64,000 nucleotides of DNA, taken from assembly GCA_024636295.1 (NCBI GenBank), contig JAGXHI010000068.1, forward strand, positions 1 to 64,000. The letters run 5' to 3'. The position numbers and the translations under genes are program-made. The notes under the pieces are model-generated. The model saw only the letters and a list, made by a program, of their open reading frames with translations. It was not told where the DNA came from and did not search any database. Of the stretch, positions 31,265-31,343 are shown piece by piece; position 1 is the first letter of the stretch; every line of letters begins with the position of its first letter. The DNA comes from Desulfuromonadales bacterium (GTDB lineage: Bacteria > Desulfobacterota > Desulfuromonadia > Desulfuromonadales > JAGXHI01).

Positions 31265-31306
31265 AAAAAGGCGCCCGTCCTTCCATGTGGAAGGAGGGGC
31301 GCCTTT
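31265..31306 (-). terminator. Intrinsic terminator in glnK leader (attenuator)
   Basis: Minus strand AAAGGCGCCC-ctCCTTCC-acat-GGAAGG-ac-GGGCGCCTTT followed by TTTTATTT, upstream of glnK start. Confidence 0.85.
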
Positions 31307-31343
31307 GCCCGATGATCGACCCCGCTCAGGACGCCGTTGTCCC
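31297..31343 (-). promoter_or_regulatory. Predicted ANTAR-binding dual-hexaloop motif (P1+P2) in glnK leader
   Basis: Minus strand P1 GGGAC-AACGGC-GTCCT and P2 GGGC-AAAGGC-GCCC; both hexaloops have A1 and G4; P2 3' arm overlaps terminator 5' arm. Confidence 0.78.

Follow-up and report, generated by a model that had tools for sequence, protein, structure and literature searches.

The stretch of DNA analysed here (referred to as the window) comprises 64,000 nt of a Desulfuromonadales contig and carries, on its minus strand, a cluster of genes that runs from a histidine kinase to a response regulator. The upstream member encodes a cytosolic-looking kinase with GAF, PAS, HisKA and HATPase domains recognized by Pfam (31517-33133, minus strand), and is preceded by a sigma-54 promoter read from the sequence, TGGCACGCCTTATGCC (33199-33214, minus strand). 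It is followed on the same strand by glnK (30892-31230; Pfam P-II, E 4.8e-31), which encodes the P-II signalling protein and would be the first gene of the controlled operon, and by the ammonium transporter gene amtB (29467-30852; Pfam Ammonium_transp, E 1.8e-101). The third gene of the glnK cluster encodes a Gcw_chp-family outer-membrane-like protein (28623-29414, minus strand; Pfam Gcw_chp, E 2.2e-6), its start being approximate and set at the signal peptide. The last gene encodes a REC-ANTAR response regulator of 195 aa (27922-28509, minus strand; Pfam Response_reg and ANTAR). The gene for the sigma factor itself, rpoN, was found in the same genome.

The kinase, P-II, amtB, Gcw_chp and ANTAR genes are linked in most of the relatives whose neighbourhoods were examined, in the order kinase-glnK-amtB-Gcw-ANTAR or ANTAR-kinase-glnK-amtB-Gcw, and in 12 of 24 relatives the kinase gene is likewise preceded by a sigma-54 site of this kind. 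The kinase gene adjoins the ANTAR gene, glnK or both in most relatives examined; its direct adjacency to the ANTAR gene in several of them points to the kinase as the likely partner, and the GAF-PAS kinase of the window is thus probably the partner of the ANTAR regulator. The Gcw_chp protein is consistently linked to amtB and is possibly an ammonium or nitrogen porin. A small secreted protein of similar kind (a signal peptide followed by ATPSTQIWIPSTD) comes first in the glnK-amtB cluster of Geobacter-type genomes, where it follows the ANTAR element. In the window the Gcw_chp and ANTAR genes are separated by a strong terminator, GCCGCCGCCC-TGTTC-GAGGGCGGCGGC-CTTTTTTTT (28590-28564, minus strand), which makes a single self-amplifying operon running from glnK to the ANTAR gene unlikely.

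The region between the kinase gene and glnK contains a second sigma-54 (-24/-12) promoter, TGGCACGCGCCGTGCT (31439-31454, minus strand), which has one mismatch to TGGCAC-N5-TTGCW and from which transcription of the glnK leader is inferred to start at about position 31428. Just 3′ of this promoter, in the early leader, there is a direct repeat, atCGACAGTTC-catCGACAGTTC (31428-31395, minus strand). Some 95 nt of leader separate the promoter (31454-31439) from the first of a series of predicted helices. The outer helix, P0 (31317-31351, minus strand), appears in the minimum-free-energy fold as a pairing of CGATCCC (31351-31345) with GGGGTCG (31323-31317), and encloses the hairpin P1 by way of an internal loop (A / GAGC). 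P1 (GGGAC-AACGGC-GTCCT, 31328-31343) is separated by a raw linker of 17 nt (31327-31311) from the hairpin P2 (GGGC-AAAGGC-GCCC, 31297-31310), the putative antiterminator, and within this linker the six nucleotides ATCATC lie between the 3′ arm of P0 and P2. Both hairpins, read from the sequence of the minus strand, have loops of six nucleotides with A at the first and G at the fourth position (AACGGC in P1 and AAAGGC in P2). An intrinsic terminator, AAAGGCGCCC.CTCCTTCC....GGAAGGA.GGGCGCCTTT, occupies positions 31306-31267 of the minus strand and is followed by the T-rich tract TTATTT. Its 5′ arm consists of the loop and the 3′ arm of P2. The dual A1/G4 hexaloops and the overlapping terminator (31343-31267), together with the sharing of bases between P2 and the terminator, are therefore present as the original prediction had described them. 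The Shine-Dalgarno sequence of glnK (31243-31238, read from the sequence) and its ATG at 31230 follow on the same strand, the former lying outside P1, P2 and the terminator. The terminator has a predicted energy of -31.6 kcal/mol (fold z-score -5.2) versus -6.1 kcal/mol for P2 alone, so termination should be the default outcome and P2 would need a protein to hold it.

Single hexaloops with A1 and G4 are at chance level in the window, with 52-54 per strand versus 55.5 in shuffled sequence. A scan of both strands for two such hexaloops (ANNGNN, stems of at least 4, linker 3-25) together with an overlapping terminator returned exactly one element, and none in 20 Markov-shuffled strands. The significance of the element lies in the combination of two hexaloops with a terminator and in its conservation; hexaloops on their own are not special. 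Likewise, the sigma-54 promoter match before glnK, taken alone, does not exceed chance expectation in the window. An Rfam scan of the leader gave no family above threshold, and the assignment of the leader to a known Rfam family was dropped as the sub-threshold matches were to unrelated sRNAs only. Elsewhere in the window three c-di-GMP-I (GEMM) riboswitches match above the Rfam threshold (168-242, 1763-1837 and 48682-48761, plus strand).

The REC-ANTAR gene provides the only ANTAR match in the assembly. The original prediction had rightly placed an ANTAR response regulator nearby, but its reading frame spans 27922-28509 rather than 27922-28482, and its start lies about 2.8 kb, not 2.4 kb, from the leader; a second possible Met start is located near 28485. 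The protein matches the EutV structures 6wsh and 6ww6 (E 2e-35), and the residues R142, K143, K147, K149, E160, Y164, M172 and R175, which contact RNA in the RNA-bound EutV structure (6ww6), are present. Three further EutV contacts, R168, N173 and R177, are replaced by Q, D and S, substitutions that are the norm in this lineage. Across 66 homologues R142, K143, K149, E160, M172 and R175 are invariant, as is the Q at the R168 position, whereas position 147 varies among K, R and Q and position 164 among Y, F and H. The regulator is probably an orthologue of Geobacter GnfR.

Within the order, the RNA element occurs in 36 of 52 ANTAR-bearing genomes versus one of six that have no ANTAR gene (Fisher p=0.02); in one genome, G016, the RNA is present and no ANTAR gene was detected. 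The link is not absolute, in that 16 of the 52 ANTAR-bearing relatives have no strong RNA site, and binding by the regulator is a prediction, both of which would suit an antitermination switch that answers to another input, be it a small molecule (as in a riboswitch), translation, or some other RNA-binding protein. Such a switch is very unlikely, however, as ANTAR targets are defined by two hexaloops of the same A1/G4 type (PMC3369931), the linked ANTAR gene is present in a single copy, and the leader has no Rfam match above threshold.

Conservation of the leader was assessed by searching for GlnK in 58 genomes (the genome of the window and 57 others of the same order, representing 39 genera) and examining the best 30 loci. 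Of these best loci, 26 of 30 have the dual hexaloop in the same position upstream of glnK, with A1 and G4 invariant in both hairpins of the 26 aligned leaders; the motif is thus conserved in related glnK leaders, a point on which the original prediction had depended. The overlap between P2 and the terminator is kept as well, and nearly all homologous glnK leaders have a terminator and a site resembling TGGCAC-N5-(A/G)TGCT, a sigma-54 site, at -163 to -233 (about 160-230 nt before the start codon). No variation is seen among the 26 aligned leaders in the closing pairs of P1 (A-U and C-G) or in the core of P2, and the three other stem pairs of P1 covary. Pairing is retained in 94.9% of cells of the stem pairs overall and in 97% of those of P2, and five of nine pairs show compensatory, double-sided changes, two pairs of P2 among them. 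The covariation score is 0.380 versus 0.181 in shuffled alignments (0/500), and it drops when the pairing partners are slid. A covariance model built from the glnK leaders matches such leaders across the order and, in a sister order of the same class, targets typical of the family. The leader accordingly has the features of the ANTAR-target class, that is dual A1/G4 hexaloops, a P2 that excludes the terminator, covarying stems and an ANTAR gene in the genome.

These patterns bear on the view that a plain, unregulated intrinsic terminator lies between the kinase gene and glnK, the hexaloops being chance by-products of its GC-rich arm. The strength of the terminator, the chance frequency of single hexaloops and the making of P2 from terminator bases all agree with it. 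P1, however, is outside the terminator, so that the invariance of its loop is not explained by termination and points to recognition by a protein; its closing pairs are also invariant and its stem covaries. A plain terminator would moreover silence glnK as transcribed from the sigma-54 promoter that sits upstream in nearly all leaders, and this view is extremely unlikely to be correct.

The distance between the two hairpins required separate attention. In the eut leaders of Enterococcus faecalis the linker is 5-12 nt and one of 14 nt is harmful (PMC3369931), and linkers of 2-25 nt have been accepted for ANTAR RNAs (PMC8164766); the raw P1-P2 linkers of the relatives are mostly 11-20 nt. With P0 formed, the gap in the window falls from 17 nt to about 6 nt in the predicted fold. 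The 5′ flank of each leader was therefore tested for pairing with the linker of that leader or with linkers exchanged between genomes, the contiguous P1 stem being removed first; a version without this trimming was discarded as confounded, since it counted outer P1 pairs. A P0 helix of at least 4 bp can form in 32 of 37 native glnK leaders versus 18.5±2.6 with swapped linkers, and one of at least 5 bp in 20 of 37 versus 7.9±2.3. No linker swap reached the native count, although the rule that defines P0 was devised after inspection of this first set and the swap statistics are exploratory. With one leader per family, P0 is seen in 14-16 of 18 leaders versus about 9-10 after swapping, and the median gap left before P2 is 6.5-7 nt. 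Flanks shifted 10-30 nt upstream gave no significant excess of P0. For the 24 leaders of a second set, some half of which come from the sister order, the excess under the same contiguous-helix rule was not significant (12 versus 9.4±2.1), and P0 is therefore claimed for the window's own order only. A three-helix ANTAR target in this order, wherein P0 folds a linker that is otherwise too long and so gives P1 and P2 the spacing needed by an ANTAR dimer, is a tentative proposal with nearly even prospects of being right. P0 itself could be a tuning or sensing element. The system may offer a natural test of how ANTAR dimers gauge hairpin distance, as the linker is longer than the working length in E. 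faecalis and P0 appears to compensate.

The conservation of P0 is also what one would expect if the regulator bound mainly an extended P0-P1 structure and affected the stability of the mRNA or the translation of glnK instead of antitermination, and actinobacterial ANTAR RNAs that act on translation have been described (PMC8164766); this is exceedingly improbable for the present leader, given that the Shine-Dalgarno sequence is outside P1, P2 and the terminator, and that mutual exclusivity of P2 and the terminator is conserved.

The ANTAR-type leader foreseen upstream of glnK-amtB is thus supported by conservation, by the overlap of P2 with the terminator, by the single ANTAR gene, by the co-occurrence of RNA and ANTAR gene, by the linked kinase and by the RNA-contact residues, and the leader is very probably an ANTAR-dependent transcription antitermination switch for glnK-amtB. 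By analogy with work on EutV (PMC3369931, PMC8934654) and with Geobacter GnfK/GnfR, from which the binding, phosphorylation, nitrogen signal and antitermination are inferred, RNA polymerase with sigma-54 would start some 200 nt upstream of glnK when nitrogen is limiting. The nascent RNA would fold into the strong terminator by default, and transcription would stop before glnK. Under nitrogen limitation the REC-ANTAR regulator (27922-28509) would be phosphorylated by the GAF-PAS kinase (31517-33133), dimerise, and bind the hexaloops of P1 and P2 through A1 and G4. Here most of the linker would be taken up by P0 at the base of P1, leaving P1 and P2 about 6 nt apart. P2, held in its folded form, would take away the 5′ arm of the terminator, allowing glnK and amtB to be transcribed. 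The presence of sigma-54 promoters before both the kinase gene and glnK suggests that promoter activation and antitermination operate as two successive gates.

A genome-wide search for the same motif before nif, gln and amt genes, which the original prediction had proposed, yielded glnK only in the genome of the window, and additional sites before nif, draT and gdh-like genes in its relatives. With the covariance model of glnK leaders one site scores 54.4 bits in this genome and the next best at most 19.2 bits. Sites at or below about 19 bits were set aside as noise, those inspected being inside reading frames (on either strand) and having no overlapping terminator, so that no second credible ANTAR target was found in this assembly, which is 87% complete; nitrogenase genes were not found in it either. 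In three relatives listed as 99-100% complete (G004, G039 and G057) both the ANTAR gene and the glnK leader are present, and no nitrogenase match was found. At Geobacter loci the gene for the nearest ANTAR homologue, which shares about 50% identity, is directly upstream of nifH (NifH confirmed), and the nifH leaders carry the GGCAAAGGCGCC P2/terminator, some of them as two consecutive copies; several also show a sigma-54 promoter. In two of these loci from Geobacter sp. (L114 and L116, about 8730-8860) the nifH leaders consist of two tandem units of P2-type hexaloop and terminator with no P1-P2 pair, which suggests a series of terminators, each of them provided with a hexaloop. Malonomonas has the element before a DraT gene, and in some relatives it precedes a small outer-membrane-like gene at the head of the glnK-amtB cluster. 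In G055 (L189, about 577-623, minus strand), a genome with no nitrogenase match, a strong dual hexaloop with terminator precedes a glutamate-dehydrogenase-like gene (Pfam match under the curated cut-off) near the ANTAR gene.

The glnK leader is the most widely shared target found. With one detectable target, no nitrogenase found, and the pair kept in near-complete relatives that lack nitrogenase, the core job of the ANTAR/RNA pair is probably ammonium uptake. Control of nif appears to be an addition in diazotrophs, as judged by presence and absence and not by a tree. The persistence of the pair in near-complete nitrogenase-less genomes thus suggests glnK-amtB as the core target and nitrogenase control as an elaboration.

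The element is a kind of switch already known from other bacteria. One of the closest known systems is that of Geobacter, for which Ueki and Lovley reportedly described in 2010 a two-component antitermination system, GnfK/GnfR, that features sigma-54 promoters and nitrogen genes with a terminator in the leader; promoter activation and antitermination are said to act there as two gates. The genes in Geobacter sulfurreducens are named gnfK (GSU0941) and gnfR (GSU2822) (PMC7962754). Common to both systems are a REC-ANTAR regulator, a histidine kinase, sigma-54 promoters and a terminator within the leaders of nitrogen genes, and the kinase of the window, a linked GAF-PAS protein with a sigma-54 promoter, is likened to GnfK by architecture and not by identity to GSU0941. 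In contrast to GnfK/GnfR, the kinase, glnK-amtB and the regulator are clustered here and glnK-amtB is the only detectable target; GnfK/GnfR controls nitrogen-fixation genes, whereas no nitrogenase was found in this assembly, the nifH leader being seen in the Geobacter relatives. EutV/EutW of Enterococcus faecalis likewise combines a dual A1/G4 hexaloop, a P2 laid over a terminator and a kinase-dependent receiver-ANTAR protein (PMC3369931, PMC8934654), but it responds to ethanolamine, whereas the leader of the window would respond to nitrogen limitation and has a sigma-54 promoter, a longer raw linker and the outer helix P0. The Klebsiella NasR/nasF leader and the NasT/nas leaders share ANTAR-type hexaloop attenuation of a nitrogen operon; these depend on a single-component nitrate sensor (NasR) or on the NasS-NasT pair and serve nitrate genes, in contrast to the histidine kinase and glnK-amtB found here. 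Ramesh et al. (2012) defined the ANTAR motif and, in the available part of their paper (PMC3369931), predicted RNAs before P-II, amt and nif genes, including those of Pelobacter carbinolicus, which are of the same class and from the same broad bacterial group as the present element; that part of the paper makes no connection with non-diazotrophs or with a defined cluster of kinase and regulator, and does not mention P0. New here are the conservation and covariation of the glnK element across the order, the linkage of the kinase, glnK-amtB and ANTAR genes, the persistence of the system without nitrogenase, and the outer helix P0, which together make a covariation-supported case across an order that ANTAR antitermination may control ammonium uptake itself.
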